A DNA stretch of 41,582 nucleotides from a virus. The DNA is taken from IMG/VR virus record IMGVR_UViG_3300029319_000071, positions 10,947 to 52,528 of that record, one strand, 5' to 3'. Positions 1-41,582 of this stretch are shown in pieces. The notes beneath the pieces were generated by a model. That model was given only the letters and a program-made list of their open reading frames with translations. It did not search any database and was not told the DNA's origin. A program made the position numbers and the translations under genes. Positions within the stretch are counted from its first letter, which is position 1, and every line of letters begins with the position of its first letter.

Positions 1-900
1 CCCAGCCCTGTTAAGGAAAGTAAGACTTTCGGGCTTAAATCGGGTTCTAACCACGTCTGTGGCTTTCCTAATAGTTTCTACCGGAAGCTTAGTATTTGCC
101 ACAACACGAACTCGGGCACCAAGAGGAATATTGGTGTTCTTTGGGATTCTGCCCTTGGGTGTAAGTTCGATTGTAATAAACGGCTTTGGGTTTTGGAACG
201 TGTGTAGTTCTACCTTGAAATCGTCTTTGTTATCGATAGTCCAAAGCAAGTAGCCCTTATCCATTTCCTCGGCGTGGTTTTGTTGAACTGTGCTGCCAAC
301 ATAGCGCACCCGACCTTCATCGTCCAAGCTTTGGTTGGTTTTGTGAATGTCTCCAAGCAGGGCATAGTCAAAACCCTCAAAGATAGAAACGTCGTTCTCG
401 CCGTGTTCCATAACCCAGCCAAGAGAAGTTTCGCAGCCAGAGATAGAGCCGTGATAAAGAGCAATATTAATTTTTTCTTTCTGTGTTGGCTTTATCCAGT
501 TTTCTGTGTCAAAAACCGATAGAACATTGAATGTTAGGTTATCGTCCCATACAAACTCACCTGACGCCCGCAAGAGGTGAATGTGCGGGTGGTCAAGTGC
601 CGTGACTAAGGGTGTGATGGCATCTTGACGTGCTGTGTTTCTCAGATTGCCGTCATGGTTGCCTGGAATAATAATAAGTGGAGCAATATCAGCTAAGTTT
701 TTGAGAAAATCTGTAGCGAGGTCAAAATACTCTGGTGAGAGATTGACCTTCGTGTGTGCCAAGTCACCACAATGAACAATGATGTCTGGCTGATCTGCTC
801 GCAGTTTATTATACATCTGCGAAAATACAGCGCGGTATTCCTTGTGGTATTTTAGATTTCTGATATGGGTGTCAGAAATGTGGGCAATAGAATAACTCAT
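1..900 (-). CDS. Mre11/SbcD-like (T4 gp47-like) DNA nuclease subunit, 3' end outside window
   Basis: The frame is open from ATG at 900 to the left edge, giving 300 codons without a stop, so the C-terminus is missing. The metallophosphoesterase motifs appear in order: DTH (D10, H12), GDLAH (D46, H49), GNHD (residues 80-83), an isolated histidine in LYHGS (H150) and LGDIH (H186). This is the Mre11/SbcD/gp47 arrangement. Family knowledge: such proteins pair with a Rad50/SbcC/gp46 ATPase and resect DNA ends in recombination. In T4 the pair also degrades host DNA. A gp46-like partner would be expected further left, outside the window. The start ATG shares one base with the TAA stop of the methyltransferase (TAATG), which points to translational coupling. 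A different metallophosphoesterase is possible but the motif set fits Mre11 well. Confidence 0.88.
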   Translation of the reverse strand, partial: MSYSIAHISDTHIRNLKYHKEYRAVFSQMYNKLRADQPDIIVHCGDLAHTKVNLSPEYFDLATDFLKNLADIAPLIIIPGNHDGNLRNTARQDAITPLVTALDHPHIHLLRASGEFVWDDNLTFNVLSVFDTENWIKPTQKEKINIALYHGSISGCETSLGWVMEHGENDVSIFEGFDYALLGDIHKTNQSLDDEGRVRYVGSTVQQNHAEEMDKGYLLWTIDNKDDFKVELHTFQNPKPFITIELTPKGRIPKNTNIPLGARVRVVANTKLPVETIRKATDVVRTRFKPESLTFLNRAG

Positions 901-1838
901 TAAACATCCTTGGTGCGAAGAAGCACCTCTGTTGCTGGCTTTGCTTGGTAACCATCCTCTGTTTTCTTTCTTCGACCTGCTGTGTATGTCACATCAAAGT
1001 AAAGAATGTGGTCCCAACGCGATGTGAAGAAATCATCTCCACAGTCCCTATTCGTCAACCAGCCAAGAGCACCAACCTTTTTGCAATGCTCAAGTGACGA
1101 AATAACTCGCTCTTGCTCTTTATCATGAAAATCAGTATCGTATTGTGTAAAAGAATCCCTATAGGGTGGGTCCATGAAGACAAACGAATCCTTGGTAGCC
1201 CACTTGGAAACTACGTCCTCGTAGTCGCCACATAGTATTTCTGTGTTTTGCAGTGCCTTGTGCCACCATTTCAAAACCTTGTGATCGTATACATGGATAG
1301 TTTGGTTGCCAAGACCAAATGGCGTACCAAATCTGCGATTAGTGTTGTTGTTAACCTGCCAAATACCATTGAACCCAGTCTTCATAAGAAAGTATAGTGT
1401 AGCAGCTTCTTTGGCTTTTGTCCAGTCTTTATATTTGTATGCGTGCTCATGACGTAGTTTAAAATAAAAATACCTACGACATGGGTGGTGCTCATACAGT
1501 TCTTCCCAATCTCTATTCCAGTCCCTCTCTAGCTGTTTTCTTAGCTTTTTATCTGGCTGAAACTCTTTGCGTAAAGGCAAATATTCTGATGATAACTCAA
1601 TCAAACGAGCTTCAAACTCATCGAAGTTATTTTTTATCTCTCGATAGATTGATATTATGCCTTCGTTAACATCGTTAATGACAAACTTTGCGTCGGGGTT
1701 TTGATTGTACGCCCAGATAAACATCGCACCACCGCCGAAGAAGGGCTCGATGTATCTGTCAAATGTTTTGGGCAAATAGGGATCATACTTCTTGAGCATT
1801 TTCTTTTTGCCGCCTGCCCACATAAATAACGGTTTCAT
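900..1838 (-). CDS. dam: Dam-type (D12 class) DNA N6-adenine methyltransferase
   Basis: This 312-residue enzyme would transfer a methyl group from S-adenosylmethionine to the N6 of adenine in DNA. The N-terminal motif FMWAGGKKKML matches the F.GGK.. element of the Dam/DpnM/T4 Dam family. It is followed by the SAM-binding IEPFFGGGAMF (about residue 30-41) and the catalytic DPPY near residue 225, an alpha-class (D12) order. I choose ATG at 1838 over an in-frame GTG at 1844: it forms an ATGA overlap with the stop of the upstream endonuclease gene and has GAGGT just before it. Dam relatives recognise GATC, GATATC, CATG and other sites, so specificity cannot be read off. Overlap with an EcoRI-like nuclease gene suggests it is the protective partner of a restriction-modification pair. 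A solitary phage Dam is the alternative. Confidence 0.92.
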   Translation of the reverse strand: MKPLFMWAGGKKKMLKKYDPYLPKTFDRYIEPFFGGGAMFIWAYNQNPDAKFVINDVNEGIISIYREIKNNFDEFEARLIELSSEYLPLRKEFQPDKKLRKQLERDWNRDWEELYEHHPCRRYFYFKLRHEHAYKYKDWTKAKEAATLYFLMKTGFNGIWQVNNNTNRRFGTPFGLGNQTIHVYDHKVLKWWHKALQNTEILCGDYEDVVSKWATKDSFVFMDPPYRDSFTQYDTDFHDKEQERVISSLEHCKKVGALGWLTNRDCGDDFFTSRWDHILYFDVTYTAGRRKKTEDGYQAKPATEVLLRTKDV

Positions 1839-2350
1839 ACACACCTCGCTAGTGTATCAATCATTTTAGCCTTTACTTCTTCGGGAGTGAAACCATCAGG
1901 GCTCAATACAAAAGAATAGTTTTCACCCATTGTAATCTCTGCCAACCTTCTCATTTTATCGAATACTTCGCCCTCTCTTGCCCCTTCACCGGAACAGAAG
2001 GTAACGTACTTTACATCGGGGTTGATGTGTTTCGCAATGATTGCGTTCTTAAACCATCTTTCGTTGGCGTTGCCTTTTAGTCCTTGTTTTTTTGCTTCAA
2101 ATACAGCAACAAGCTTATCACCAAGAAACCATGCACCACCGTCTGGCTCAAATCCAAAACAATCATCTCCGACATATTTTCTTTTATCCTCTTTTACGAA
2201 ACGCTTTTTGCAAGACAAGTTATTCGTGCCAATGATTGCATCTCTTGATTCTTTAAGGGACACGTCCAGCTTCTTGCTTTTATCGTCATAAGCTGTGGTG
2301 CCAGACTGAATGCCGCCGTTAAACCCAGCGGTTCTTTGTGAAACTTTCAT
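1835..2350 (-). CDS. EcoRI-family type II restriction endonuclease, short form
   Basis: This 171-residue protein carries the two EcoRI signatures. First is PDGG (residues 69-72) followed by EAKKQG (85-90), a PD-(D/E)XK site with D70, E85 and K87 matching EcoRI D91, E111 and K113. Next comes GNANERWFKN (93-102), matching EcoRI GNAIERSHKN, which contains the base-contacting N141, A142, E144 and R145. The EcoRI sequence is recalled from memory. The protein is much shorter than EcoRI (277 residues). The stretch between K87 and the recognition motif is about 7 residues against about 27, so the DNA-wrapping arm appears to be missing. Start ATG at 2350 has AGGAGT upstream. The stop overlaps the methyltransferase start (ATGA). 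Nuclease activity and site are inferred; AATT or GAATTC is the natural guess. Confidence 0.82.
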   Translation of the reverse strand: MKVSQRTAGFNGGIQSGTTAYDDKSKKLDVSLKESRDAIIGTNNLSCKKRFVKEDKRKYVGDDCFGFEPDGGAWFLGDKLVAVFEAKKQGLKGNANERWFKNAIIAKHINPDVKYVTFCSGEGAREGEVFDKMRRLAEITMGENYSFVLSPDGFTPEEVKAKMIDTLARCV

Positions 2351-2354
2351 AATA

Positions 2355-2360
2355 ACTCCT
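2355..2360 (-). promoter_or_regulatory. Ribosome binding site of the EcoRI-like gene
   Basis: On the minus strand AGGAGT lies four bases before ATG at 2350. It decides the start against a TTG codon at 2368 that has the same frame. The site overlaps the last two bases of the primase stop codon, so translation of the two genes may be coupled. Confidence 0.6.
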
Positions 2361-3285
2361 AAATGCAAGCAACCTGCATTGCTAAAAGGTTATCTGGGTC
2401 CACCCAGGTGGCATTTTGGCGGCGCTCTTGGAACTGACCTCGTGTCATTTCTCCCACATCATCAAAACCTGAGATGTCTACCTTGTAAACGTCTACGTCA
2501 TATTGTAACAGTTTTCGCATGATTTTGTAAGCTTTTGAGTCTGCATCTGGATCAAGCGCAAAGTAAACTGCCGTATCGTTATGAACAATACTTTGGAATA
2601 GCTTGCTTTCTTCTCGCAGGGTCGAGCCAAGAATAGGCACAGCGTTTTCACCTGCGATAATAGCGTCGAACACACCCTCTACTAAAATAATCTCTTGGGA
2701 AAAGTCAAGGAAAAGTTCGTTAAATATAATATCTTTACTCGCGTCAGGGTTACGATACTTTGCCCAAGAGCCCTTGTAAGTTCGTGCGATGAAAAAGTTT
2801 GGATCGCCATCCTTATTAAAGGATGGAACGATAATGCGATCCTTGAACTCACCCCATGGACAATACCCGATCTTCCAAAACAGTATCTCATCCATTGTGA
2901 TGCCTCGCTTTGCAAGATAGTGACGGGCTGGAAGGGATGACATAGGCAAGTCTGAACGACCTAGAAAAATGTAATCATTCGGCAAGTCTATTACTTGCTC
3001 TCTTTCTTCTGCTTCGTCGCCAAATAAGTCGTCAAAGTTTGTTACATCAAAGTCGGGTGACAACTCTGCCCATCTTTGCTTATCAGAGAATGTCCCAAAG
3101 CGACGAATAAGCCTGTATACAGACTTTCCAGAGTAGTTGCAGTGCCAACACTGAAACTTATCTTTGTCGATGTTTACGGATAGCTTGTTCTTGTGGTGTT
3201 TACAGTTGGGACAATGAAACAAACGCTCCCCACCGCTTTTGCGAAAGTCGCCTAATGTTCTGCGGAGGATAGAGACTTTTTCCAT
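2359..3285 (-). CDS. DNA primase with zinc ribbon and TOPRIM domain
   Basis: This 308-residue protein would make RNA primers for phage DNA replication. The N-terminus has a four-cysteine zinc ribbon (CPNC at residues 25-28, CWHC at 46-49) typical of DnaG/T7/T4 gp61-type primases. The centre contains a basic-acidic primase core (RIIVPSF near 150). The TOPRIM domain follows, with the glutamate motif LVEGVFD (E203) and the ALDPDAD motif (D245, D247). I choose ATG at 3285; the longer frame would start with TTG at 3315. The start overlaps the end of the RuvC-like gene by 34 bases. No helicase domain is fused, so a separate helicase is expected elsewhere in the genome. Closest functional equivalent is T4 gp61, though zinc ribbon plus TOPRIM looks more like DnaG. 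Confidence 0.9.
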   Translation of the reverse strand: MEKVSILRRTLGDFRKSGGERLFHCPNCKHHKNKLSVNIDKDKFQCWHCNYSGKSVYRLIRRFGTFSDKQRWAELSPDFDVTNFDDLFGDEAEEREQVIDLPNDYIFLGRSDLPMSSLPARHYLAKRGITMDEILFWKIGYCPWGEFKDRIIVPSFNKDGDPNFFIARTYKGSWAKYRNPDASKDIIFNELFLDFSQEIILVEGVFDAIIAGENAVPILGSTLREESKLFQSIVHNDTAVYFALDPDADSKAYKIMRKLLQYDVDVYKVDISGFDDVGEMTRGQFQERRQNATWVDPDNLLAMQVACI

Positions 3286-3788
3286 ACTGACCAACCTGCC
3301 TTTGCTATGACCCAACTGTCTGCTTTGTCGTATGACTCTGGACGTGGGTTGCCCTTTGTCGTGTATTGTATCTCAAAAGTGGGGTCGTTGTCAAGAACAA
3401 ATTGTAGAACAACGGGTTTTGCTTTTGTGCCACGGGGAACTTTAATACCTACGGCTCGTCTTGCTTCACCTGCGGTTAGATATTGTGGTTTAACCTCAAA
3501 GAGCACATATGTTATCCAACTAACCACTCCATTGAATCTCTGTAGTGCTGCCATGGTCTTGGCAGAGGAGCCCCCTGAGTTGAAAAACATAAATGGCTGC
3601 TCGATAAAAACCTGTGTTACTTTAACATCTGATTTAATCACTGTCAAGTATTCTTTTATTTTTTCTGCCTTGACAAAAAAATCCTTATGTTTGCGGAGGT
3701 CTATCGCTGAACAGAGCACAACTTCGCCCTCTTCGTTTATTACAGAGACACCTGTAATAGATGTCGAAACGTCTAATGCTAATATCAT
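3252..3788 (-). CDS. RuvC-like Holliday junction resolvase
   Basis: This 178-residue protein has the RNase H-like fold signature of RuvC-type resolvases. It begins ALDVSTSITGVSVI (D6, the first metal-binding aspartate), continues with VFIEQPF (E63) and ends with YDKADSWVIAKAG (D154 and D157). It would cut four-way junctions formed during phage recombination and packaging, the job of T4 gp49, which is unrelated in fold. It is the first gene of the DNA module after the tail genes and overlaps the primase. No Shine-Dalgarno is visible in front of ATG at 3788, but a perfect TATAAT is. Poxvirus A22-like or phage RuvC families are the nearest relatives I would expect. A ribonuclease H-like nuclease of other use cannot be excluded. 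Confidence 0.82.
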   Translation of the reverse strand: MILALDVSTSITGVSVINEEGEVVLCSAIDLRKHKDFFVKAEKIKEYLTVIKSDVKVTQVFIEQPFMFFNSGGSSAKTMAALQRFNGVVSWITYVLFEVKPQYLTAGEARRAVGIKVPRGTKAKPVVLQFVLDNDPTFEIQYTTKGNPRPESYDKADSWVIAKAGWSVWKKSLSSAEH

Positions 3789-3794
3789 ATGATT

Positions 3795-3800
3795 ATTATA
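3795..3800 (-). promoter_or_regulatory. Possible -10 promoter element before the RuvC-like gene
   Basis: The minus strand reads TATAAT followed by six bases and then ATG at 3788. This lies at the boundary between the tail module and the DNA module, where a separate early or middle promoter makes sense. A -35 element is not convincing: TTAAAG at the usual distance matches only half the consensus. If used, transcription would begin at or next to the start codon. The region is A+T-rich, so a chance match is possible. Confidence 0.3.
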
Positions 3801-4889
3801 CTACAAGTCGATGTTGACTTTAAATGTGTAGCCATCTTCCTCGTCTTTTTTGACGGGTCTGGCTAGCTTGGCTATCGCGATGAGATTCTTGTTATCATCA
3901 TAAATGCCGATTTTAGAGATGTAAGTCACGGGCGCATATGGCTCAGAACCTGATGCATAATCTGACCTGACTATGTTCTTGATCGTTGAACCAGTTGGTT
4001 GAGTGTATGATTTTGACTGTACGTCTTCTTTTCTGACACTTCCGCTGAGAAGGAATGTTGGATTGTTTGAGAAGTTGAACTGATTCTTTGGTGCCTCACA
4101 AAGCATCGTCATGACGGGGATAGTGTTCGTTCCCTCAAGCTCCAAAGTCCATGAACCGGAAGCGGGACCATTAGTGCCTTCGTAAGGTCCGTAAAGCACC
4201 CATGTAGGCGCGATTGAGGAACCACCCTGCCAAGTATCGTTTGCAACTGTCGAAAGCGCTGCGGACGACGTGAGAAGCAAAAATCCTTCGTTATAAAGAA
4301 CGGTGCCAATGATGCTACCTGAGTTAGCTGCTCCAAACGTTTGGATTAGAGCACCGTTATGACCAGTGTCTTGCGCTCTGGCTACTAGAGTCCCACTAAA
4401 GAAACAACTTAGTGTAACAGAACCTTTTTTAATCTTCTCACCGTAAAAGATTGATGGGATGGAGATTAAGTTTGTATCAGCGCTTTCATAGTTTGAAAAA
4501 TCATAAGCCGAGGAGAGTGTCTTATAAAAGTTTAATGTATTCTTCAGGGCTTTTTTGCGAGCGGTCGTCATGGGTCGCTCACGAGTAACCGATGCAGTCA
4601 GTGGATACGTGCCATTAATCGTTGCCCCAGGGTTCAATGCCCTGTAAGCTTTTTTAGTGGTTACGCTAAAACTATTCTTAGCTGCGTCCTTTACCACAAA
4701 AGGAAAGATTAGGTTTCCTGCTGCGCGGTCTGTGTTTATTTGGTATAAAGAAGTGCTGCCAGAAACATCCTGGGCTCCTTCTGTGATTCTTTCGTTGTAA
4801 TATGCGTTACCACTGTGAAAATCCACCCTCAAGCGAGGGTGGGTCTTCAAGAAATTAGTGAATACTTGATTCTCTGAGAATTTCTTCAT
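3801..4889 (-). CDS. Virion structural protein, paralogue of the next gene
   Basis: I cannot name this 362-residue protein. Its C-terminal part resembles that of the 380-residue protein encoded immediately upstream. Both have a F-N-[FY]-S-x-NP-[ST]-[FY]-L element (NQFNFSNNPTFL here), then a [YV]T.[IV]G[IL] segment, then a run of the type LIAIAKLARPVKK, and both end in a beta-type [VL]RLD/VNIDL tail. This looks like a repeated tail or fibre building block that arose by duplication. The start ATG shares one base with the upstream stop (TAATG). It is the last gene of the tail module. No signal peptide or membrane segment is seen. Role as a tail or appendage component is inferred from location and paralogy. 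Confidence 0.6.
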   Translation of the reverse strand: MKKFSENQVFTNFLKTHPRLRVDFHSGNAYYNERITEGAQDVSGSTSLYQINTDRAAGNLIFPFVVKDAAKNSFSVTTKKAYRALNPGATINGTYPLTASVTRERPMTTARKKALKNTLNFYKTLSSAYDFSNYESADTNLISIPSIFYGEKIKKGSVTLSCFFSGTLVARAQDTGHNGALIQTFGAANSGSIIGTVLYNEGFLLLTSSAALSTVANDTWQGGSSIAPTWVLYGPYEGTNGPASGSWTLELEGTNTIPVMTMLCEAPKNQFNFSNNPTFLLSGSVRKEDVQSKSYTQPTGSTIKNIVRSDYASGSEPYAPVTYISKIGIYDDNKNLIAIAKLARPVKKDEEDGYTFKVNIDL

Positions 4890-6031
4890 TAGTAGTCAAG
4901 TCTTACCCTCAACACATACTCGGTCTCTGGAGTCTTTCTGAGTGGCTCTGAAAGTTTTGCGACAGCGAGTAGCTCGTTGTTGGCTGATAGCAGACCAACA
5001 GTGGTCACATAAGACACTGGTGTGTCTGTTGGGTCATCCTTTACAACAATCTTTGATGAAGATAGGTAGGATGGGTTTGCTGAGTAGTTGAACTCGTTGT
5101 GTCCGACTCGGCAGAAGTAAATAGAGGAGTTCAACTCTGTGGTGTTGTTAAACGAGATGTTCTCGATTCTGCGACGGAAGTTGTTAGCAAAGTCATCAAC
5201 TGTGCCAGATGCTAGCATGTTTGCGATTGTGCCGAGTCCGAACGATGAGCCTGAGTATTGGCTCTGCACGATATCTGCTGGGAATGCAGCATTGACTGGG
5301 TTGGTCAATGAACCAGTGATTGAGAGTACAGCAACGCCCGCTTGATAGAAAAGCAAGCCAGCAAATGCCAAGCCGTTTGTGGCTGTATTTGGGAAAAATG
5401 CTCTCATTGGAACATCAGGAGCAGCGGTTAAGGTTGTTCCTGTCTGTTCTGTGGCGTAAAGTACACCATACTCACCGGCTGGTGAGTTGATGCGATAATC
5501 GCTGTCAGCGCCCTTATCAGCATATGTAAGAATATGGTCGGGAGCACCGAAAGCACCACTCATCTTTAACTTCAAAGAGAATGTACCTTTCTGGATTTCG
5601 TCCTTGTAGAGCAATCTAGAGAAGTTAACAAAAAATACTTTATTGTATTTACTGCCCTCGGTAAGGTCACCGTTCTCATCAAACTTGCGAAGGTTACCGT
5701 TTTGGTCAAAACCAGCGAGTACTTGTGCCATTGAGTTGTACAAGTTGATTCGCTTTCTTTTGTCGGATTCGGTAATGTTCGTCGCTTCTGAAATAACGCT
5801 TGTATGGAAACCTACAGATAGATCATAAATGTGGTTAGCCGATGAGCTTAGGAATGGGTAATCAAAAACAGACTGAAACATCCCGTGTGTGTACGTTCTA
5901 ACGTTCGTATCACTGGGGTATGTCCCGTATGTTCCTGATGCCAGGGTTCCTGTCAAGGGGATAGACTCATGCAACAGGGTTGTTACTGAAGTCTTATCAT
6001 TAGCGTTAAACTTTTTTCCAAATTGTGCCAT
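4889..6031 (-). CDS. Virion structural protein, paralogue of the gene at 3801-4889
   Basis: This 380-residue protein of unknown function has a small-residue-rich, Thr/Ser/Gly/Asn-heavy composition typical of phage tail and fibre proteins. The C-terminal 75 residues contain NEFNYSANPSYLSSS, YVTTVGLL and LLAVAKLSEPLRK, aligning with the neighbour at 3801-4889. The centre (around residue 155) has YKDEIQKGTFSLKLKMSG, which also lines up with GEKIKKGSVTLSCFFSG in the neighbour. The N-terminus MAQFGKKF resembles the short KKF starts of other proteins in this module. ATG at 6031 is preceded by a weak AGGA element. A structural role in the tail is inferred. Confidence 0.6.
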   Translation of the reverse strand: MAQFGKKFNANDKTSVTTLLHESIPLTGTLASGTYGTYPSDTNVRTYTHGMFQSVFDYPFLSSSANHIYDLSVGFHTSVISEATNITESDKRKRINLYNSMAQVLAGFDQNGNLRKFDENGDLTEGSKYNKVFFVNFSRLLYKDEIQKGTFSLKLKMSGAFGAPDHILTYADKGADSDYRINSPAGEYGVLYATEQTGTTLTAAPDVPMRAFFPNTATNGLAFAGLLFYQAGVAVLSITGSLTNPVNAAFPADIVQSQYSGSSFGLGTIANMLASGTVDDFANNFRRRIENISFNNTTELNSSIYFCRVGHNEFNYSANPSYLSSSKIVVKDDPTDTPVSYVTTVGLLSANNELLAVAKLSEPLRKTPETEYVLRVRLDY

Positions 6032-6043
6032 TTTTTTGTCCTA

Positions 6044-7015
6044 CTAGAATGTTTTGATTTTCACAAAGCGAATTGGGATGCTCAAAGAGTATCCTGTTTT
6101 CGCGCCGACAACACGGACTTCTGAGTCAATGCTAAAGACGCTTGTGTATGAACCATCTGTTGTGTCTGTGGTGTTGCCAAACTTCGTAAACAAGAAGTCT
6201 GAGAAAGCCAAGTTATCAGAAGCGAATACACTAAAGCGTAGCGCTTGTCTGTTGTATGGTCCATCAATTGATGATGGGCTAGATGTATCGTTAGTCTCTG
6301 GATCTCTGATCGTAACAAAGTTCTCTGCGTTCACAGCGTTGCCCTGACTGATGACGTATGTTGCGATGTTGTCGTCATCGATAAAAGCTGGCTGCAATGT
6401 ATCGCCATTTGGCTTGATTAGTGTGCCAAGTCTGTTATCAAGAAAAACAAAGTAATCTGTTTCTGTCAAGTCGCCGGATAGGTTCTCTGTAAAAGATACC
6501 TGCGTGGTGTTTAATCCTTGGTGGATTGTGATTGAGTTCTTGGTTCTATCCCCAGTTGATCTTGCCAGGAAGTTACCGGCGAGCAGGTTTTTAGCTGGTG
6601 AGCGAGTTGAGAAGCCATATGTTGTGCCAACGTTGGTACCAAAGTCTCCATCGGCGTTAACCAATGCGACAAATGTTCCGATACTGCTTGTATTAAAACC
6701 AGCACCATTTGCATCAGATGTTTGCAACTTTTCGATTGGCAAGTAGAGAAGACTCGTGTCTGAGTAAGTGACTAGCTTTGATTTCATAGAAGCGATGTTG
6801 TCTGTGATTGCCTCTAGGATTGGCGTTTGTAGAATGTCTAGATCCTGATAAGCGCTGCCGGTTGTGAGGTTATATTGAGAATAATCAATCTCGTCGTCGC
6901 CCAATGCGAACTGTGAAATCTCAAAGGAACCATCACCTTGGGAAAGTCTCTTTCGACCTAAGTCGGTTAAGACTGCATCAAGAATAATGTCTCCTGAGTT
7001 ATTTAGAAAAGCCAT
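6044..7015 (-). CDS. Tail-associated structural protein with conserved DxxLTxxGRxxLS N-terminus
   Basis: This 323-residue protein starts with a segment ILDAVLTDLGRKRLSQG, then ALGDDEIDYSQY. The 282-residue product at 12746-13594 has the matching VFDVQLTSEGRRLLSLG and YDDDILYDFG at the same distance from its start. The two therefore share an N-terminal module and probably attach to the same kind of site. The remainder is beta-rich (many S/T/V/G) and not recognised. The gene has the clearest Shine-Dalgarno of the tail module, AAAGGAGT, and follows the longest intergenic gap in the window, so it may be expressed separately. Tail or baseplate function is inferred from context. Confidence 0.6.
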   Translation of the reverse strand: MAFLNNSGDIILDAVLTDLGRKRLSQGDGSFEISQFALGDDEIDYSQYNLTTGSAYQDLDILQTPILEAITDNIASMKSKLVTYSDTSLLYLPIEKLQTSDANGAGFNTSSIGTFVALVNADGDFGTNVGTTYGFSTRSPAKNLLAGNFLARSTGDRTKNSITIHQGLNTTQVSFTENLSGDLTETDYFVFLDNRLGTLIKPNGDTLQPAFIDDDNIATYVISQGNAVNAENFVTIRDPETNDTSSPSSIDGPYNRQALRFSVFASDNLAFSDFLFTKFGNTTDTTDGSYTSVFSIDSEVRVVGAKTGYSLSIPIRFVKIKTF

Positions 7016-7080
7016 GTGTCGTACTCCTTTACTTCAATAAATAGATAGTTCAATACTATTTTACCTTTTACATTCTAACT
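7016..7080 (-). other. Longest intergenic gap (65 bases)
   Basis: This A+T-rich spacer lies between two tail genes in an otherwise gapless block. On the minus strand it contains ATAGT-ATTGA-ACTAT, a five-base-pair inverted repeat, followed by TATTTATTG and then AAAGGAGT before ATG at 7015. I find no clear T4-type late promoter (TATAAATA) in transcription direction and no convincing terminator. It is the only place in the tail module with room for a regulatory site outside coding sequence. Confidence 0.35.
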
Positions 7081-34905: not shown

Positions 34906-35161
34906 TTGGTTTAAACTCCTGTGTTGTTGCGCGTTTTCTCATCTTTTTCAAGATCTCGCGGTTTTCTTCAATACCTTCTTTTGTCGCTTCGCCAACTTTC
35001 CTATCTGTTTTTCTGTCCTCTGTGACTAGAGTCGTAAAACTACTTGGAACACGAAAGACAAAGGGAGAGCCGCACTCACACTCGTCAACTGTATCTGACA
35101 TAGAGTGCCACTCGTCCCAAGTCTTTTCGCAGGTGTTGCAGCGATAAGTATATTTAGGCAT
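34898..35161 (-). CDS. FmdB-type zinc-ribbon protein, 87 residues
   Basis: The N-terminus MPKYTYRCNTCEKTWDEW with C8/C11 and a later CECG pair (C28/C30) is the FmdB-family zinc ribbon (P.Y.Y.C..C, then C..CG). After residue 40 it becomes a basic helix with many Lys/Arg and Glu. Such small proteins are frequent near phage transcription and structural genes, but their role is not established. Nucleic-acid or protein binding is inferred. The start overlaps the cupin gene stop by eight bases. Confidence 0.75.
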   Translation of the reverse strand: MPKYTYRCNTCEKTWDEWHSMSDTVDECECGSPFVFRVPSSFTTLVTEDRKTDRKVGEATKEGIEENREILKKMRKRATTQEFKPND

Positions 35162-35507
35162 CTGCCCTTCCGTAATCGTCAGAAAGCCTCACAACATCGT
35201 TCAAATGTGGTGTTGACGCTTCCAGTAACGTTACGCCATTTGTCTTTGGGGCAGTAAATCGGTGTATGGTCCCAGGCTTAATCCTGTAAGAATGATTCTC
35301 ACCTAAAACTAAAATGTTGTCTTCGTCATCATTTCTTGATAGGTCAAGGTGCAAACAACCATCCTCTACGAAGACCGTCTCATCTTTTTCGTTGTGGTAC
35401 TGTCTTGACAACCTTTGCCCAGGTGCCACATAAATACGCTTTACTACATAAAGCTCAGTATCGATTAATATGTCCTCCCAACCCCAAGGCTTTTCAATCC
35501 GTCTCAT
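35154..35507 (-). CDS. Cupin, mannose-6-phosphate isomerase type II-like
   Basis: This 117-residue single-domain cupin has EKPWGWEDIL at the start, then KRIYVAPGQRLSRQYHNEKDETVFVEDG and later HSYRIKPGTIHRFTAP. That is the pattern of the C-terminal mannose-6-phosphate isomerase domain of ManC (PWG...., PGq.lS.Q.H...E...v..G, i..g..H....). H.....E and the later H are the metal ligands. It would interconvert mannose-6-phosphate and fructose-6-phosphate or act on another sugar phosphate, supplying the sugar cassette upstream. The guanylyltransferase half of ManC is absent. Overlaps the 59-residue gene by 14 bases. Confidence 0.75.
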   Translation of the reverse strand: MRRIEKPWGWEDILIDTELYVVKRIYVAPGQRLSRQYHNEKDETVFVEDGCLHLDLSRNDDEDNILVLGENHSYRIKPGTIHRFTAPKTNGVTLLEASTPHLNDVVRLSDDYGRADA

Positions 35508-35673
35508 CGTCTGCTGCCTTTATTGTTGGGGGGTTCATGATTGTTAGTTCCTGGGTATCTGTATCGACTGCTATTTCAAAGTCACGCAGGATGCCTGTGA
35601 TATCCTGCTGATCCATGATTCCCTTCTGAAGCGCCATCATAATCGCTCCAATCGCTTGATTTGATAATGTCAT
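35494..35673 (-). CDS. Small conserved-looking protein of unknown function, 59 residues
   Basis: This short frame runs from ATG at 35673 to TGA at 35494: MTLSNQAIGAIMMALQKG, then IMDQQDITGILRDFEIAVD, then an acidic tail. Its start shares a base with the epimerase stop (TAATG) and its end overlaps the cupin start, the coupling style used throughout this genome. It also fills what would otherwise be a 165-base gap. The N-terminal half is an amphipathic helix with methionines. Function unknown; I did not find a motif. Confidence 0.7.
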   Translation of the reverse strand: MTLSNQAIGAIMMALQKGIMDQQDITGILRDFEIAVDTDTQELTIMNPPTIKAADDETD

Positions 35674-36596
35674 TACTTAAACTCCGTATTGTTTCTTAAC
35701 TTTGAACGACCTGCGCCATTCATGAACTGGTATAACTGTTTAAAACAATTTTCTATTCCGTCGTGGATTTTGACCTTAGCGGACCAACCCAACTCCTTCA
35801 AGGGCTCCACTTTCGCCCTGGTTGACAGCACGTCGCCTGCACGGGCAGGGTTGTAGTCAAACTCAATGTCTGGAAACCACTTGTGAATGATATCCACAAT
35901 CTCATTTAGAGAGATATTTTCTCCTGTTCCTACGTCAAAAACTTGCCCACCAAAATCCTTACCGCAGTTGGCAGCAAAAATGTTTGCAGCAACAACGTCG
36001 TCAACGTGTACCATGTCTCTTCTATGCTCGCCGTCACCATTGATAAATGGTTTCATGTCATCTCTGATGTGGTGCATCCAGTTCGCAATAGCTGTCGCAT
36101 AGGCATGATCAACCTTTTGATCCTCTGAATATACGTTGAAGTACCTTAGTGACACTGTATCAACATTGTAAAGCTCACTGTACAGCTTGCACTCTAGTTC
36201 AGAGATAAGTTTCTGAAGTGCGTAAGGACTTACAGGACCGTTGCCGTTGCCTAGAACAGAAGATGAGCTAGAAAAGATAACTCGTTTAGCACCTACCTTT
36301 CTTGCAAAGTTCAAAACATTGGTTGTCGAGATAACATTATTTTTCATTGTCTCTACTGGTTTTTCAACACTGTAAAGAACCCTTGGGATGCAAGCCATGT
36401 GAAAAATATACTCTGGCTTGAAGTCAAAATAATGTGGATGAAACGACTCACCGTCAAGACCATGATCTAGGTCGTCATTAATATCGTGCCCCTCTTGAAG
36501 GTCGATTCCAAGAACCTCGTGTCCCTGCTCTTTTAATGCGTTATAGAGTTTGGTTCCGATATATCCTTTGTGTCCGGTTACTAAACATCTTGACAT
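35673..36596 (-). CDS. NAD-dependent sugar epimerase/dehydratase
   Basis: This 307-residue extended short-chain dehydrogenase begins VTGHKGYIGTKL (TGxxGxxG, NAD binding). It has SSSSSVLG around 110-118 and the catalytic Y-x-x-x-K in SPYALQK (near 125-129), followed by RYFNVYSEDQ and the substrate-binding HRRDMVHVDDV. This matches UDP-glucose/UDP-N-acetylglucosamine 4-epimerase-type enzymes (GalE/WbpP family). It would make a nucleotide sugar for the cassette. ATG at 36596 follows the previous gene by ten bases. Exact sugar cannot be read from sequence. Confidence 0.85.
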   Translation of the reverse strand: MSRCLVTGHKGYIGTKLYNALKEQGHEVLGIDLQEGHDINDDLDHGLDGESFHPHYFDFKPEYIFHMACIPRVLYSVEKPVETMKNNVISTTNVLNFARKVGAKRVIFSSSSSVLGNGNGPVSPYALQKLISELECKLYSELYNVDTVSLRYFNVYSEDQKVDHAYATAIANWMHHIRDDMKPFINGDGEHRRDMVHVDDVVAANIFAANCGKDFGGQVFDVGTGENISLNEIVDIIHKWFPDIEFDYNPARAGDVLSTRAKVEPLKELGWSAKVKIHDGIENCFKQLYQFMNGAGRSKLRNNTEFK

Positions 36597-36606
36597 TTAC
36601 TTCTCC

Positions 36607-37551
36607 TTATTGCTGTGCGTTGAAGCTGTCAACACAAATCTTCACAGCCTCTTCTACCTTGACCGTAGGAGAGAATCCTAGTTCCTCTTTAGCACGGTCA
36701 ATGCTTGGTATTCTAATCTTTACGTCATCGGCGTATTCTTTGACAGTTTCAAACTGTAACTCTTCCTCTCCATTATATATCATTTTTGCCAATTGTTTCA
36801 TAGTTATTGGCTCTGGATTTCCAAGATTATACGTTTTATTGTCTGTTTTGTCAATAAAAGAGAACTTTGCGATGGCAGAGGCAATATCCTCAATCCAAGT
36901 AAAGCACCTGATTTGTTCACCGTCGCCAATGATAGGAAGTGGATTCTTCTTTTCGACGATTAGGTTCTTGATATAATCTGCAAAAACATGGCTCATACCC
37001 AATTCTTTTTCACCCTTCTCGTGGGGTGTGATGATATTGAATGGACGCCAAATAACATAGTTGATGTCATACTGTCTGGAGAACGCTCGACAGAGACGCT
37101 CACCGACAAGTTTGCTTAGTCCATAATCGGTCGAGGGAATGATAGAGTCATCCACGTCAGACTCAGTGCTGGGATGGTTGTCACAACGCTCGTAAACCAT
37201 CGATGAACTGATGTATGCAACCTTCTTGACTCCGTGTTTCTTCATAGCCCACAGAATGTTTTGATGCAGAACAATATCCTTTGACAGAATATCCGCTGGG
37301 TATTTGTGAAAGCCGCCGACACCATAAATCAGAGCAGCAGCCTGAACAACTCCATCAATACCACTCATGATTGAATCAACAAATGATGGATCTGTTAAAT
37401 CCCCACGAACAAACTCATATGCTCGTTCTCTTTCAATCTCGCCGTAGCGGGCAAAGTTGTCTACGCCAACGACCTCATACCCTTGTTTTAGCAGCAGCGG
37501 AATAACATACTGCATTAGTGATCCCTCAGACCCAGTTACTAAAATTTTCAT
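36607..37551 (-). CDS. NAD-dependent sugar epimerase/dehydratase with altered glycine motif
   Basis: A 314-residue enzyme of the same superfamily as its neighbours. The first motif is TGSEGSLMQ, so the third glycine of TGxxGxxG is replaced (by Met or shifted). It has ISSSMVYE, the catalytic TDYGLSK (near 143-149), WRPFNIITPHEKGE and CFTWIEDIASAI. The family includes UDP-glucuronate decarboxylases, GDP-mannose dehydratases and 4-epimerases. Substrate is unknown. It overlaps the dehydrogenase stop by four bases (ATGA). The changed glycine motif may weaken cofactor binding or the enzyme may bind NAD differently; activity should be regarded as open. Confidence 0.82.
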   Translation of the reverse strand: MKILVTGSEGSLMQYVIPLLLKQGYEVVGVDNFARYGEIERERAYEFVRGDLTDPSFVDSIMSGIDGVVQAAALIYGVGGFHKYPADILSKDIVLHQNILWAMKKHGVKKVAYISSSMVYERCDNHPSTESDVDDSIIPSTDYGLSKLVGERLCRAFSRQYDINYVIWRPFNIITPHEKGEKELGMSHVFADYIKNLIVEKKNPLPIIGDGEQIRCFTWIEDIASAIAKFSFIDKTDNKTYNLGNPEPITMKQLAKMIYNGEEELQFETVKEYADDVKIRIPSIDRAKEELGFSPTVKVEEAVKICVDSFNAQQ

Positions 37552-38342
37552 TTTCTCATTCCCTCAAATACAGTTGTTTTGTATTTATTGTTTTCGTCTA
37601 ATATCATTTTAAAGAAGTCTACATCTAGACCCCTCTCTTTGACCAAGTGATTCAAAGCACTTGTATCTTTTGGCAAACACATGCCGCCAAAGCCTCTTAT
37701 GTTGTGATTACAATCCAAATACACATCAGAGATATTGTTTCTTTCTGTGATTGCGTCTTTCACACTTGTGTAGTTTGCACCTAATGACTCGCATAGTTCA
37801 AAAAAACTATTGGCAAATGTTATCAAGGTGGCGTTATACACGTTATTAAAGTATTTTGTAAGCTCTGCCTCCGTAGGGGTGAGCTTCACAAAGGTGTTTG
37901 GATATTTACCATGGCTCTTCTTAATGACGTCGTACACATCATCTCTGTTGGTTCCAATGACACATAGGTCGTGGTTCTCAACGAAATCTACTATCGCACA
38001 TCGTTCACGCAGAAACTCTGGGACAAAACATATTTTTGTATTCTTGTATTTGTCTGTTAACTTAATAGTTGTCCCTGGAGAGACTGTTGATTTAATGGCG
38101 ATGATGCCACCATACTCTTTCGCTAACAGTTCTTCTACCACTCCCTCCACGATAGAAACATCGCAAGCACCTTCGTCATCGGTAGGGGTTGGCACGCAGA
38201 TATAACACACCTCACAATCAAGTAAATCTTCGATTTTTGTATCGTATTTTATATCGTGGGGCTTAACATTGTGCCCCAGTTTTCTAAAGCCGTGTTCTAC
38301 AGCGGACCCAACGCAGCCGAGCCCGACGATTCCTATATCCAT
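37548..38342 (-). CDS. UDP-glucose/GDP-mannose 6-dehydrogenase, short form
   Basis: A 264-residue enzyme with the Rossmann motif VGLGCVGSAV at residues 6-15. It has CVPTPTDDEG and IAIKSTVSPGT in the first half and FVPEFLRERCA in the middle, and the active-site cysteine in GFGGMCLPKDTSAL (near 230-243). This order is that of Ugd/WecC/AlgD-type dehydrogenases, which oxidise C6 of a nucleotide sugar to a uronic acid in two steps. It stops about 30 residues after the cysteine motif, so the C-terminal nucleotide-binding domain of the usual 390-450-residue enzymes is missing. ATG at 38342 (preceded by GGGAG and in a TAATG overlap) is preferred over ATG 38357. Confidence 0.85.
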   Translation of the reverse strand: MDIGIVGLGCVGSAVEHGFRKLGHNVKPHDIKYDTKIEDLLDCEVCYICVPTPTDDEGACDVSIVEGVVEELLAKEYGGIIAIKSTVSPGTTIKLTDKYKNTKICFVPEFLRERCAIVDFVENHDLCVIGTNRDDVYDVIKKSHGKYPNTFVKLTPTEAELTKYFNNVYNATLITFANSFFELCESLGANYTSVKDAITERNNISDVYLDCNHNIRGFGGMCLPKDTSALNHLVKERGLDVDFFKMILDENNKYKTTVFEGMRK

Positions 38343-39181
38343 TATTGTTTCTCCCATCTAAACCAGCCGTCGAGTGGAACTTGGCTAAGGTTTTTATTTT
38401 TATCGCCCTTCCATTCTCGCCATGGTCCATAAACCCCAACCTTGGAGGCATCGCTCAAAACCGCTGCCCACCAAGACAAGGTGCCATGCTCAAAAAGAAT
38501 ATTATCAAACGTTCTAATAAACTTAAAATCTTCAGCTACATCCCGCTTTTCCACTATTGGACTATGTTTTTTAAACCCATCAATAAGATCGTTAATATAT
38601 TTTACAGACTCAGACAGCGGGACGCGCTGTGATGCTGGAATATTAACGTGAAACTTAGTGTTACTAAGTTGGTCAGCAGTTATGTTTTCCCATTTTGGCA
38701 TGTCCGTAACAATATGCAGCTTATCAAAGTCGAATTTTGAGACAGCGTTTAGATAATCTTCTACTTTAGGTTTTAGATAAAACTCGTTTTTCATGAAAAG
38801 TCTGTCGCCGGTCCTCATGTGGACAACAAGGTCTCTATTATTTCTTTTTTGTAAGGGTCCAAACCAACTTTTTATTTTATCTAAATTGTCGATGTAAAAA
38901 GTATAGTCTTCAAAATAACCTGTAAGAAACAAGTTTTGCCCCTTTACCCTGCTGTCATATGCCATTTTATACGTTTTGTCACTGATATTTAAGGCTTGAG
39001 GTAATCTTTTTTGCTCAACCCTCACTCCAAGATCCTGAAGACCTTTAATTGCATAATAATCCTGCGATGGTGGAATCACGTAACATGAAGTTTCGTGGTG
39101 CTCTGCCAGCAATCTGCAAGCAACGTATTGAAAAATGTTATTGCCAAAGCCGTTTGTCAACTGGACAGCCACTTCAGACAT
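38342..39181 (-). CDS. Glycosyltransferase family 11-like (fucosyltransferase)
   Basis: This 279-residue protein carries the pattern of alpha-1,2-fucosyltransferases. LTNGFGNNIFQYVACRLLA (residues 8-26) matches GGLGNQ.FQYa.a..la. VVHMRTGDR near 119-127 matches V.IR.GDy, whose arginine binds GDP-fucose. FEHGTLSWWAAVLSD near 233-247 matches S.STFSWWaawL. Such enzymes add fucose from GDP-fucose to a glycan. A GDP-fucose synthase-like gene lies three genes upstream, at the right edge. The first glycine of the N-terminal motif is Thr-Asn here, so the acceptor may differ. Translation is coupled on both sides by TAATG overlaps. Confidence 0.72.
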   Translation of the reverse strand: MSEVAVQLTNGFGNNIFQYVACRLLAEHHETSCYVIPPSQDYYAIKGLQDLGVRVEQKRLPQALNISDKTYKMAYDSRVKGQNLFLTGYFEDYTFYIDNLDKIKSWFGPLQKRNNRDLVVHMRTGDRLFMKNEFYLKPKVEDYLNAVSKFDFDKLHIVTDMPKWENITADQLSNTKFHVNIPASQRVPLSESVKYINDLIDGFKKHSPIVEKRDVAEDFKFIRTFDNILFEHGTLSWWAAVLSDASKVGVYGPWREWKGDKNKNLSQVPLDGWFRWEKQ

Positions 39182-39876
39182 TAATGACTCCTATTGACAA
39201 ACAGTAGGTCGCCGGTTGGTCCTCTGCCTGAAAGTTCTTCAATGACTCTAAAGCCTTTCTCGTCTAATAGTTTAATTGTATCTTGTCGTGACATGGAGCC
39301 CTCGTACATCATTTCACCATACTCTGTCCAAATAAACTTTATATTTTTTATTTCATCGCCCATGCCGAGGATGACATCTTTTTCTGCGCCTTGGACATCG
39401 ATCCAAGCCAGGTCAACATGTCGAATATCTCTTTCGCAAGCCCAGTCATCATACCTTTTGGATTTTACTTTTATAGTCTCTCCAAGGACATGTTGGTAGC
39501 CTTTTTTAAGCGAGGAGGAACCAGAGTTGTTTAGCTTGCCTTTTTTGTAATCTTGCTCGCTAATCCAGTCATATTTGTTTGGTACATCAGTTGGCTGATA
39601 TTCTTGATAAGACTGAAAGAACTCTAGTTCTCCTTCTACATCGGATAACGCTAGTTCTATTAGTTCTATTCTATGGTCGTTAACGTGTTTCTTGAATATT
39701 TCAATAGAGCGTGGATCGGGCTCAAATGCAAAAACACGAGCAAGCGGAAAAGCCTCCGTGAATCGCACAGAGTCCTCTCCGAAATGAGCGCCGATTTCAA
39801 CTATGGTTGGATCAGTTCGGTTAATAATAACCTTGAACATATTAAACTTTCTTGTGTATTTTTTCATCCAACTCAT
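39181..39876 (-). CDS. FkbM-family methyltransferase
   Basis: A 231-residue SAM-dependent methyltransferase. The SAM motif is VEIGAHFGEDSVRF (about 26-39), followed by VFAFEPDPRSIEIFKKH and LALSDVEGELEFF. The later IDVQGAEKDVILGM near 157-170 is the FkbM signature (lk.DiqGaE..vl.G). Family members usually O-methylate sugars in glycans and polyketides, so it likely decorates the glycan made by neighbouring genes. The ATG directly follows the stop of the Mpo1-like gene (TAAATG). Confidence 0.85.
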   Translation of the reverse strand: MSWMKKYTRKFNMFKVIINRTDPTIVEIGAHFGEDSVRFTEAFPLARVFAFEPDPRSIEIFKKHVNDHRIELIELALSDVEGELEFFQSYQEYQPTDVPNKYDWISEQDYKKGKLNNSGSSSLKKGYQHVLGETIKVKSKRYDDWACERDIRHVDLAWIDVQGAEKDVILGMGDEIKNIKFIWTEYGEMMYEGSMSRQDTIKLLDEKGFRVIEELSGRGPTGDLLFVNRSH

Positions 39877-40167
39877 TTAAATCTTGATTCTCCCAAGGAG
39901 TATGTCCTTGAACATAATCCAGTCACACGCTTTTGCCCACAAGGGCTTTGAAAACGCTGCTGGTGTGTTATTCTCAAAAAAGAAGTGTCCTGACCATGCA
40001 AATGGATATATAACAAATGGCACCACAGGTAACAAATACCAGTGACTGTAATAGAAAATCATTATCACTGTCAAGATAGTGCTGACCTGACCAATGAAAT
40101 GCATTCTCCTACAGAGCCTATTTTGATGCAGACTTAGGTAAAACTGATAATATTCTTTAAAAGTCAT
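39877..40167 (-). CDS. Mpo1/DUF962-like membrane protein, 96 residues
   Basis: The sequence has the DUF962/Mpo1 pattern: YLSLHQNRLCRRMHFIGQ at residues 10-27, then two hydrophobic segments (about 28-40 and 44-58), then AWSGHFFFENNTPAAF at 57-72 and a final PLWAKACDW. Conserved histidines fit H14, H23 and H61. In yeast, Mpo1 is an Fe(II)-dependent dioxygenase in the alpha-oxidation of 2-hydroxy fatty acids. The bacterial and phage roles are unknown. It lies inside a glycan gene cassette with TAATG coupling. It could act on a lipid of the host envelope, for example on a 2-hydroxy fatty acid of lipid A. That is speculation. Confidence 0.78.
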   Translation of the reverse strand: MTFKEYYQFYLSLHQNRLCRRMHFIGQVSTILTVIMIFYYSHWYLLPVVPFVIYPFAWSGHFFFENNTPAAFSKPLWAKACDWIMFKDILLGRIKI

Positions 40168-41105
40168 TATACGTTCCTGTATTTCAGGCTGTGTTTTACC
40201 AAAGGAATGGTCTTCTTGATTTCTTCAATGCCCTCTTCCAGGCTAACCTTGGTCTCGTAGCCGACATCTTTAATCTTTTCATAAGAAACTTGGTAGTTTC
40301 TCTTATCCACATCCTCTTTGATATCAGCGTGGTGAAAATATGCATCAGGGATCTGCTGATTAATCATATCACACACTTCTCGCTTTGTGTGGTTCATTTT
40401 GTTAGACCCGACATTGTATACGTTAGAAATCATTTTTTCTTGATTGTCTATCGCGAAAACAAAGGAGCGGGCAAGGTCACTAACGTGAATAAATGTTCTG
40501 AGAAAGTGTGACTCATAAATTACAGCGTAGCCCTCAGTCATAGCCTTGTGGGTCAAGTCATTGACAAGAAGGTCGAGACGCATTCTTGGAGATACACCAA
40601 ACGCAGTGGCGAACCTGAAGGCAGTGGAGTTCTTACGACTCATGACAATCTGCTCTGCCTCTGTCTTTGTTCTGCCATAGATTGATAACGGATTTAGAGG
40701 AGTCTCTTCTGTGCAAAGCCCATGAACTTCGCCATAGTTAGAGCCAGTGGAACCAAACAACAAATATTGTTCTTCTTCTAAGACACTAGCCAAAAAGCGT
40801 GTAGCTTGAGTGTTGACTTCATACGACTCTCGCTCACCTTTCAAACGGCACAACGGGAAGCCAACATAGGCTGCTAAATGGATGATAACGTCTTTTCCTT
40901 TGACCAGTGAAGCAACGAGTTTTTCGTCCCTTATATCGCCTTCTACAAAAGAAAAGTTTTCATTATTGATAAACGGAATCAACCTGTCTCCATTACCAAA
41001 CATCAGGTTATCTAAAACTGTAACTTCGTATTCTCTCTTGAGCAACATTGGTATCAATGTCGTGCCAACGTATCCTGCTCCTCCTGTTACTAAAATCTTT
41101 TTCAT
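40167..41105 (-). CDS. NAD-dependent sugar epimerase/dehydratase
   Basis: This 312-residue enzyme begins with an intact TGGAGYVG (TGxxGxxG) motif, followed by VLDNLMFGNG. It has HLAAYVG near 76-82, FGSTGSNYG near 117-125 and the catalytic SIYGRTK near 142-148. The later FLRTFIHVSDLARS (about 202-215) is the usual substrate-binding R.fihV.Dla. It resembles WcaG/RmlB/UDP-glucose 4-epimerase-type enzymes. It lies downstream of another epimerase-like gene and shares a base with it. The nucleotide sugar is undetermined. Confidence 0.87.
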   Translation of the reverse strand: MKKILVTGGAGYVGTTLIPMLLKREYEVTVLDNLMFGNGDRLIPFINNENFSFVEGDIRDEKLVASLVKGKDVIIHLAAYVGFPLCRLKGERESYEVNTQATRFLASVLEEEQYLLFGSTGSNYGEVHGLCTEETPLNPLSIYGRTKTEAEQIVMSRKNSTAFRFATAFGVSPRMRLDLLVNDLTHKAMTEGYAVIYESHFLRTFIHVSDLARSFVFAIDNQEKMISNVYNVGSNKMNHTKREVCDMINQQIPDAYFHHADIKEDVDKRNYQVSYEKIKDVGYETKVSLEEGIEEIKKTIPLVKHSLKYRNV

Positions 41106-41582
41106 TATTTGTCTCCGTTAAAAATGCTATCGTAGTACTCTATGGTGTTTTTAATCCCCTCTCGGTGATTGTAGAACTTAAAATCTTTGAAAGTTTCTAA
41201 GAAACTGTCCTTGCTCATGATTTTGACGGGATCACCGTCCTGAAATGATGTATCAAAGACAATCTCTCCTTCAAAACCGCACACATCTTTGATTGTTTTC
41301 GCAGACTCTGCGATGGAGTAGCCCTTCTCCTGACCCATGTTTAGTGGGTACTCTAGCCCTTCTAGCTCCATTGAGCCAACCAGTGTGTCAATAAAATCAT
41401 CGATGTAAGCCCACTCTCTGATTGGAGAACCAGTGCCCCAAACCACAAACTCTTTGTCACCGGCTTGCTTTGCTTTGAGCATTCTAATAATCATGCCATT
41501 AAGTGCATGAGTGTGGTTAGGGTCTTCAGAGTCTCCCGGTCCATATGTGTTTGGAAACAGGATGTTCACAGACCGAACACCG
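41105..41582 (-). CDS. GDP-L-fucose synthase-like epimerase, 5' end outside window
   Basis: The frame stays open to the right edge (GVRSVN before the GTG at 41569), so the N-terminal NAD-binding half and the catalytic Tyr-Lys lie outside. The visible 159 codons have NILFPNTYGPGD, then HALNGMIIRMLKAK and VVWGTGSPIREWAYIDDF. The last is the strong WGtG.p.REf.y.dD element of GDP-fucose synthase (Fcl/WcaG) and relatives. Stop TAA at 41105 forms TAATG with the next start. A related epimerase is possible, but the motif and the fucosyltransferase-like gene nearby favour fucose. Confidence 0.75.
   Translation of the reverse strand, partial: GVRSVNILFPNTYGPGDSEDPNHTHALNGMIIRMLKAKQAGDKEFVVWGTGSPIREWAYIDDFIDTLVGSMELEGLEYPLNMGQEKGYSIAESAKTIKDVCGFEGEIVFDTSFQDGDPVKIMSKDSFLETFKDFKFYNHREGIKNTIEYYDSIFNGDK

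Follow-up and report, generated by a model that had tools for sequence, protein, structure and literature searches.

The sequence studied here, referred to below as the window, is a stretch of 41,582 bases, positions 10,947-52,528 of the 52,528-base IMG/VR virus record IMGVR_UViG_3300029319_000071. This fragment derives from a T4-like myovirus and contains genes for baseplate, primase, a RuvC-like protein, a late sigma factor and sugar metabolism. The tetranucleotide AATT is strongly depleted in the window, and the window also encodes a small putative nuclease with the predicted fold of EcoRI (gene R) next to a DNA adenine methyltransferase (gene M). We consider it probable that the lineage's own nuclease, cutting at AATT, drives the loss of this word. 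Most related carriers of R show the loss too, and two have no AATT left, which suggests that such phages alter their own sequence to withstand the weapon that they carry.

AATT Depletion in the Window

AATT occurs 64 times in the window, while 288 occurrences are expected from base composition (zero-order) and 214 from a maximal-order Markov model. The observed to expected ratio (O/E; Markov-based unless stated otherwise) is 0.30, with z of -10.3, the lowest z among the 256 tetramers. TTAA and ATAT have an O/E of 0.99 each. The ratio is the same in the full record (80/262, 0.30). An earlier note on this DNA, made by eye, had claimed a strong depletion and counted 60 to 65 sites; both statements are borne out, the Markov-corrected ratio being far from 1. 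Its counts of 26 TTAA and 20 ATAT in the first 6 kb were exact, its five AATT there are in fact four, and its estimate of 59% A+T compares to 57.9% measured.

The same note allowed for codon and dinucleotide bias as a partial cause. Synonymous codons were permuted inside each of 31 genes, so that both proteins and codon usage were preserved. This codon shuffle still expects 272±12 AATT, against 62 seen (ratio 0.23, z -17), and codon or protein composition thus fails to account for the loss. All three codon positions were affected (15/25/22 sites seen, 60/113/98 expected). In the same shuffle TTAA reached 0.89 (z -3.0) and ATAT 1.02 (z +0.4).

The hexamer GAATTC, reported missing by the earlier note, is indeed absent from the window and from all 52,528 bases of the record. 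It was nevertheless dropped as the avoided word, because AATT is lost whatever the flank: the window is low in AATT in every flank context (O/E 0.00-0.51), GAATTC is not singled out, and AATT is entirely absent from two other phages, G033 and G035, described below.

The Nuclease Gene and Its Predicted Fold

The earlier note alluded to an EcoRI-like gene, and R is a good candidate for it, on account of its predicted fold and motifs. R belongs to phrog_2400, a family annotated as of unknown function. In the list of open reading frames it extends over 1835-2368, starting from an upstream TTG; we prefer the ATG given in Table 1. The R gene was found in 65 of 50,697 phage records, all of them Synechococcus phages; among the 60 carrier records listed, 58 are S-RIM2 and the remaining ones S-BM1 and S-CREM2. 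IMG/VR yielded 94 stretches with a relative of R, of which 80 were kept; together with S-RIM2 and the window they made up 82 sequences in 44 groups (90% R identity).

Table 1. Features of the window, with positions counted from its first base.
Feature	Position	Strand	Remarks
AATT depletion	1..41582	none	64 sites against 214-288 expected; no GAATTC
M, D12-class N6-adenine DNA methyltransferase gene, 314 amino acids	900..1844	-	Pfam PF02086, E 5e-35
R, predicted EcoRI-fold nuclease gene, 171 amino acids	1835..2350	-	ATG at 2350, preceded by GGAG; phrog_2400
GNANER, residues 93-98, predicted AATT-reading motif	2057..2074	-	spacing as in EcoRI Asn141, Ala142, Glu144, Arg145
EAKKQ, residues 85-89, predicted catalytic ExK	2084..2098	-	E85, K87, K88, Q89 invariant in 35 members
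PDGG, residues 69-72, predicted catalytic Asp (PD of PD...ExK)	2135..2146	-	invariant in 35 diverse members

The three motifs of Table 1 (PDGG, ExK and GNAxER) are invariant across 35 diverse members of the family, including P69, D70, E85 and K87. By regular expression, PDGG is present in 81 and GNAxER in 82 of the 82 sequences, of which some had been fetched with a pattern containing NA[NYI]ERW, while 13 loci (GNAQER, GNACER, GNAVER) came through another pattern. The correspondence between residues of R and EcoRI is based on spacing and not on a printed structural alignment. In EcoRI, Asn141, Ala142 and Arg145 touch A-T pairs within AATT, according to a passage in PMC4081073.

An AlphaFold2 model of the window R had a mean predicted local distance difference test (pLDDT) score of 87.8, and its five best matches were EcoRI entries (Z 11.7, root-mean-square deviation, rmsd, 2.9 over 141 residues), followed by Can2 (Z 10.5), BstEII (9.5) and MunI (8.1). 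The model of a second R, from locus L057 (pLDDT 89.3), again had EcoRI at ranks 1-5 (Z 14.8, rmsd 2.6 over 151 residues), with the next fold at Z 8.4 and MunI at 8.2. The two proteins are 42% identical, and the alignments behind their models share members. We regard the L057 model as decisive for the predicted EcoRI fold of R. Sequence searches gave nothing usable, and the resemblance to EcoRI showed only in the motifs and the predicted fold. The window R had no match to Pfam at E 10, none to PDB sequences by phmmer at E 10, and none in PADLOC at E 0.01; searches of NCBIfam, and of PDB sequences with a 35-member R profile (hmmsearch), returned chance matches only. Two scans across 84,980 species genomes turned up no bacterial homologue of R, though the patterns used were strict and leave absence unproven.

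The Methyltransferase Gene and the Gene Pair

Two motifs stand out in M, DPPY at residue 225 and FGGG close to residue 35, and 10 bases are common to its gene and the end of R. A putative nuclease gene thus lies beside a DNA methyltransferase gene, as in a Type II restriction-modification (R-M) system. The arrangement recurs: in 69 of the 81 carrier loci besides the window, M follows R downstream without a change of strand, at most 60 bases away in 53 and approximately 1-1.5 kb away in 16. Eleven of the 81 have no M downstream, and one ends at the contig end. In S-RIM2 the gap between R and M holds a 351-amino-acid gene of unknown function (L012:20451-21506). In two carriers with no methyltransferase nearby, L069 and L086, R adjoins a conserved 298-amino-acid protein with EHPED near its start (L069:2381-3277, L086:9016-9912).

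DpnM is a GATC enzyme, and since it is the top PDB sequence match of the window M (2dpm), a common AATT specificity of R and M can only be inferred. The window is poor in GATC (0.55 by Markov, 0.68 by codon shuffle). The possibility that M is a GATC enzyme and GATC the avoided word was rejected, as carriers and controls differ little in GATC (medians 0.74 and 0.83, p 0.027).

Phages Without AATT

Two fragments of distinct phages, G033 (111,864 bases) and G035 (73,883 bases), encode R with intact motifs and contain no AATT at all. Expected numbers are 339 and 233 by the Markov model, 599 and 402 by zero order, and 305±13 and 173±11 by codon shuffle of the longer genes. The two are 86.7% identical over the aligned part; a third fragment, G034, represents the G033 phage again. 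AATT and CCGG are the only two of the 256 tetramers that neither sequence contains. As CCGG is lacking in 10 of 11 R-free Kyanoviridae stretches too, AATT is left as the word peculiar to these phages. The closest listed named phage to one 20-kb stretch of G033 is S-WAM1 (7% coverage at 76%), which has no R and contains 224 AATT in 50 kb (O/E 0.84).

We looked for D12, N6_N4 and Dam-type methyltransferase genes in G033-G035 and found none, although these are fragments, and the phages may have such a gene outside them or one of a different class. A C5 methyltransferase, sought in G033 only, was not found either. These genomes bear on the idea that methylation itself drives the loss, i.e., that an AATT adenine methylated by M mutates away as CpG does. 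The regular position of M downstream of R agrees with it, whereas the absence of AATT from G033 and G035, where no such methyltransferase was found, does not. Neither do the non-carriers with a D12 or annotated adenine methylase, S-RIM12, S-RIM50 and ACG-2014a, in which AATT remains at 0.71-0.92. To our knowledge N6-methyladenine is not strongly mutagenic, and we give this explanation the least credit of all.

The same two phages speak to a general compositional bias or avoidance of palindromes, tied to no single enzyme. There are signs of such a bias: TCGA, GTAC, GATC and TATA are moderately low in the window, symmetrical AATT hexamers are rarer than asymmetrical ones (in controls too), and TTAA in the codon shuffle is 0.46-0.64 in G033 (0.58), G035 (0.46), G046 and S-RIM2 and 0.61 in R-free S-WAM1. 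Still, TTAA in G033 and G035 is low yet present; G033 without a single AATT has 277 TTAA, 461 ATAT and 307 TATA, and the codon-shuffle z scores of the window separate AATT from TTAA and ATAT in the same way. A bias of this kind is thus a very improbable cause of the AATT loss.

Relatives, Carriers, and Controls

No close DNA match to the initial 25 kb of the window was found among the 50,697 phage records, and the top matches of its gp6 there were Flavobacterium and Microcystis phages at approximately 30% identity. Among IMG/VR contigs, gp6 is 84% identical in L002 and L003 and 56% in L004 and L005. The closest relative is the 70.5-kb fragment G001, at 84%; G003, a fragment of 39 kb, is a relative at 56%. 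No R was found in the G003 fragment, and its AATT ratio is 1.02, so that depletion is unequal between the window and this relative. In dicodons with identical amino acids the window keeps only 4 (5%) of the 77 AATT of G003, compared to 27/64 TTAA, 15/48 ATAT and 8/40 TATA.

For a wider comparison each R group was represented by its longest locus, and controls were IMG/VR loci with an S-RIM2-like gp6 and no R in the locus (the best 80 of 345). AATT was lower than TTAA, ATAT and TATA in 41 of the 44 carrier groups and in 32 of the 80 controls. The median AATT ratio of the groups was 0.38; it was below 0.5 in 29 of them (18/80 in controls), and in 19 groups no palindrome had a lower z than AATT. 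Across individual loci the medians were 0.35 (81 carriers) and 0.90 (80 controls; p 2.8e-15, not corrected for kinship, many loci being copies of one phage). As the loci are duplicated and the two sets differ in lineage, the comparison within genomes (41/44) is the safer one. Further carriers had AATT ratios of 0.08 (G046), 0.12 (G051), 0.62 (G045) and 0.70 (G048, 100 of 194 kb sampled).

All seven controls that extend 10 kb or more upstream of gp6 have AATT at 0.93-1.04, and R was found in none. They were not accepted as proof that R-less contigs covering the place of R are normal, for only S-TIM4 surely reaches 13 kb. S-TIM4 (L112, 176 kb) is complete and R-free, with AATT at 0.97 on 22 kb.

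Complete Genomes and a Shared Host

Complete genomes were evaluated from 50-kb stretches, and absence of R was judged by the 35-member profile search over whole records. The carriers S-RIM2 and S-CREM2 (two stretches) have AATT at 0.25 and 0.58, the 13 R-free records at 0.71-1.01 (exact rank p 0.0095). Three of these phages share the host Synechococcus WH7803: the carrier S-RIM2, with 0.25, and the non-carriers S-T4 and S-PM2, with 0.99 and 1.01, respectively.

This contrast bears most directly on the alternative that an AATT-cutting system of the host is responsible, in which case phages would avoid the site and would have acquired the R-M genes either as a counter-weapon or for some unrelated reason. 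Many phages avoid the restriction sites of their hosts, as a passage in PMC6286503 describes. Moreover, avoidance of GGCC in the window lineage, and of CCGG and AGCT in cyanophages, is seen whether R is present or not; some pressure unrelated to R thus does act on other sites, and the ratio of 0.54 in G001, whose fragment lacks R, leaves room for a shared host effect on AATT. A common host did not, however, give WH7803 phages a common AATT level, although WH7803 is the host of S-RIM2 and not necessarily that of the window. We hold the host explanation to be unlikely, if the most serious of the alternatives. The earlier note had proposed an AATT- or GAATTC-type nuclease, either the phage's own or its host's. 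Such a nuclease is supported by the ratio of 0.30 in the window, by 1.02 in R-free G003 and by the WH7803 phages; the phage's own enzyme is favored over one of the host, and the AATT core over GAATTC, with S-CREM2 and G001 partly in conflict.

Observations in Conflict With the Proposed Self-Inflicted Loss

A number of observations weigh against R as the cause, or against its kinship to EcoRI. Firstly, Foldseek returned no match for the window R model at E <= 0.001, and the Pfam EcoRI profile PF02963 was reached by only 4 of the 35 R members, with a best E of 0.027, below the cut-off. Secondly, the carrier S-CREM2 shows no AATT-specific loss, as its AATT at 0.58 is accompanied by TTAA at 0.56-0.68 and TATA at 0.39-0.50. 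Its R is annotated as 'restriction endonuclease EcoRI' and its adenine methylase lies two genes away; the available portion of the S-CREM2 paper (PMC10665884) mentions the adenine methylase and not EcoRI. Conversely, S-RIM12, which is near S-RIM2 and R-free, has AATT at 0.71 by Markov and 0.52 by codon shuffle (TTAA 0.87). The carrier G043, with R and no D12 gene found, has AATT at 0.66 (60 of 62.3 kb). Carrier groups L024, L069 and L007 are only mildly low in AATT, and in groups L016, L019 and L021 AATT is not the lowest of the four words.

The control sets are also not clean. Carriers and controls differ, though less strongly than in AATT, in ATAT (0.93/1.13) and TTAA (0.86/1.05) as well, both with p below 1e-12, CATG and CCGG are lower in controls than in carriers, and AGCT is equal; since words other than AATT differ, the two sets must differ in lineage. 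AATT is below 0.6 in 20 of the 80 controls, of which three are S-RIM2-like and 17 fall in four phage groups. Those 17 contigs stop within approximately 6 kb upstream of gp6, and in S-RIM2 R sits approximately 13 kb upstream. No R was found in the low-AATT control contigs, but these are mostly fragments, so that its absence from the whole phages is unproven. In an attempt to tie the low-AATT controls to a carrier, a gp6 like that of L161 was sought in eight carrier records, with one distant match at 38%.

The chief uncertainty for the window is G001. No R is present in its 70.5-kb fragment, but AATT is at 0.54, and the dicodon contrast between it and the window is weak (14/43 AATT and 23/50 TTAA kept). 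Its loss is not specific to AATT, since TATA (0.53), CATG (0.43) and GATC (0.29) are as low. G001 may be a former carrier, a carrier with R outside the fragment, or a generally palindrome-poor genome. Of the two relatives without R in their fragments, G003 differs from the window as the earlier note would have it and G001 does so only in part.

Proposed Mechanism

R would be a small EcoRI-type enzyme recognizing AATT, usually paired with a neighboring adenine methyltransferase. After infection it might cut foreign DNA rich in AATT, such as the host chromosome or the DNA of a competing phage without the cassette, and serve either breakdown of host DNA or exclusion of rival phages. The phage DNA would survive through the few sites left and through methylation by M. 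R would also cut phage DNA that is unmethylated or not yet methylated, and in this way purge the genome of AATT. Carriers with M still lose sites, which suggests that protection by methylation is incomplete, possibly because synthesis of R precedes the methylation of newly made phage DNA. The activity of R, its cutting at AATT, methylation of AATT by M and the purpose of the cutting are all inferred. Self-cutting at AATT would account for the loss of a single word, for its association with R, for the small influence of flanks and for the differences among phages of one host.

A further extension we put forward only tentatively, as somewhat short of an even chance. Some phages may possess a restriction enzyme without a methyltransferase and be protected by having zero sites; G033 and G035 would represent the finished state, and the window, with R, M and approximately 30% of its sites left, an intermediate. 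Cyanophage nuclease cassettes beside a UvsW-like helicase may each leave their own avoided tetranucleotide, as perhaps in S-RIM50 (GATC 0.09). If so, a missing word could reveal what an unknown phage nuclease cuts.

Other Missing Words and Neighboring Genes

GGCC, missed by the earlier note, is an even stronger case than AATT: it does not occur in the window, against 81 (zero order), 86 (Markov) and 64±7 (codon shuffle) expected. In the whole record it is found in 0 of about 107 expected cases, in G001 in 0/140 and in G003 in 10/110. An effect of R on GGCC was rejected and the matter treated as separate, because the loss is shared by the R-free fragments G001 and G003. The loss is probably a trait of the lineage or of its hosts, and perhaps reflects HaeIII-type restriction by the host. 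No C5 methyltransferase was found in G000-G004.

CCGG is missing from 11 of 13 Kyanoviridae 50-kb stretches, with or without R (L012, L168-L173, L176, L179, L217, L227), the exceptions being S-T4 and S-CREM2. In S-RIM50 (L169:17941-19262) a D12 gene and a PDDEXK_11 gene lie beside the helicase, in the position of the S-RIM2 pair, and the GATC ratio is that given above; S-RIM12 has a similar gene pair and GATC at 0.58. ACG-2014d has 0 of 76 expected TCGA; a gene pair suspected for it turned out to encode 2OG-Fe(II) oxygenases. GTAC is at 0.28 in S-MbCM6 and 0.26 in P-RSM4, and a single GTAC nuclease common to both was discarded, the candidate genes being dissimilar by BLASTP. CTAG and GATC are absent from the stretch of Microcystis phage Mel-JY01. 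At the far end of the window (35673-41569) there is a run of genes of the nucleotide-sugar epimerase, dehydrogenase, glycosyltransferase and methyltransferase kinds.

Relation to Known Systems and Significance

Support for the phage's own nuclease as the cause of the loss is good but not conclusive; the R-M genes are best classed with EcoRI, as a variant carried by phages. R resembles EcoRI (Type IIP, G|AATTC) in its predicted fold, PD...ExK center, N-A-x-E-R spacing and putative AATT core. It differs in length (171 amino acids against 253-261 in EcoRI entries), with 20-21% identity over the aligned part, in staying below the Pfam cut-off and in being phage-borne; moreover, the avoided AATT may have any flank, and the neighboring methyltransferase is of the D12 class. 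MunI (CAATTG) and MluCI (AATT) also have an AATT core and are bacterial enzymes; MunI matches the R models more weakly than EcoRI (Z 8.1-8.2), and MluCI is likened to R by the AATT core alone. EcoRI, MunI and MluCI are named together as perhaps mosaic in a passage in PMC4081073.

Chlorovirus PBCV-1 is likewise a lytic virus with its own tetranucleotide R-M pairs (CviAI, GATC; CviAII, CATG), but as described in part of PMC7248222 it keeps many sites and methylates nearly all of them, whereas here the sites are depleted or absent. The depletion of short palindromes in phage genomes is the same as in the host-site avoidance of Rusinov et al. (2018; PMC6286503), which in the portion concerned pairs phages with host-encoded enzymes, while here the enzyme gene is the phage's. 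We recognized no literature on the specificity of phrog_2400, or on phages that shun the recognition site of a restriction enzyme they encode themselves, most subscription papers being outside the scope of the search.

Missing words in phage genomes are usually taken as scars of host defense. Here an enzyme of the phage itself is the best-supported author, which changes how such scars may be read, and phrog_2400 gains a predicted fold, active site and target. The cultured pair of S-RIM2 and Synechococcus WH7803 lends itself to a direct test. If the reading is true, phages with neither AATT nor a methyltransferase would demonstrate that self-protection can be had by losing sites instead of methylating them.

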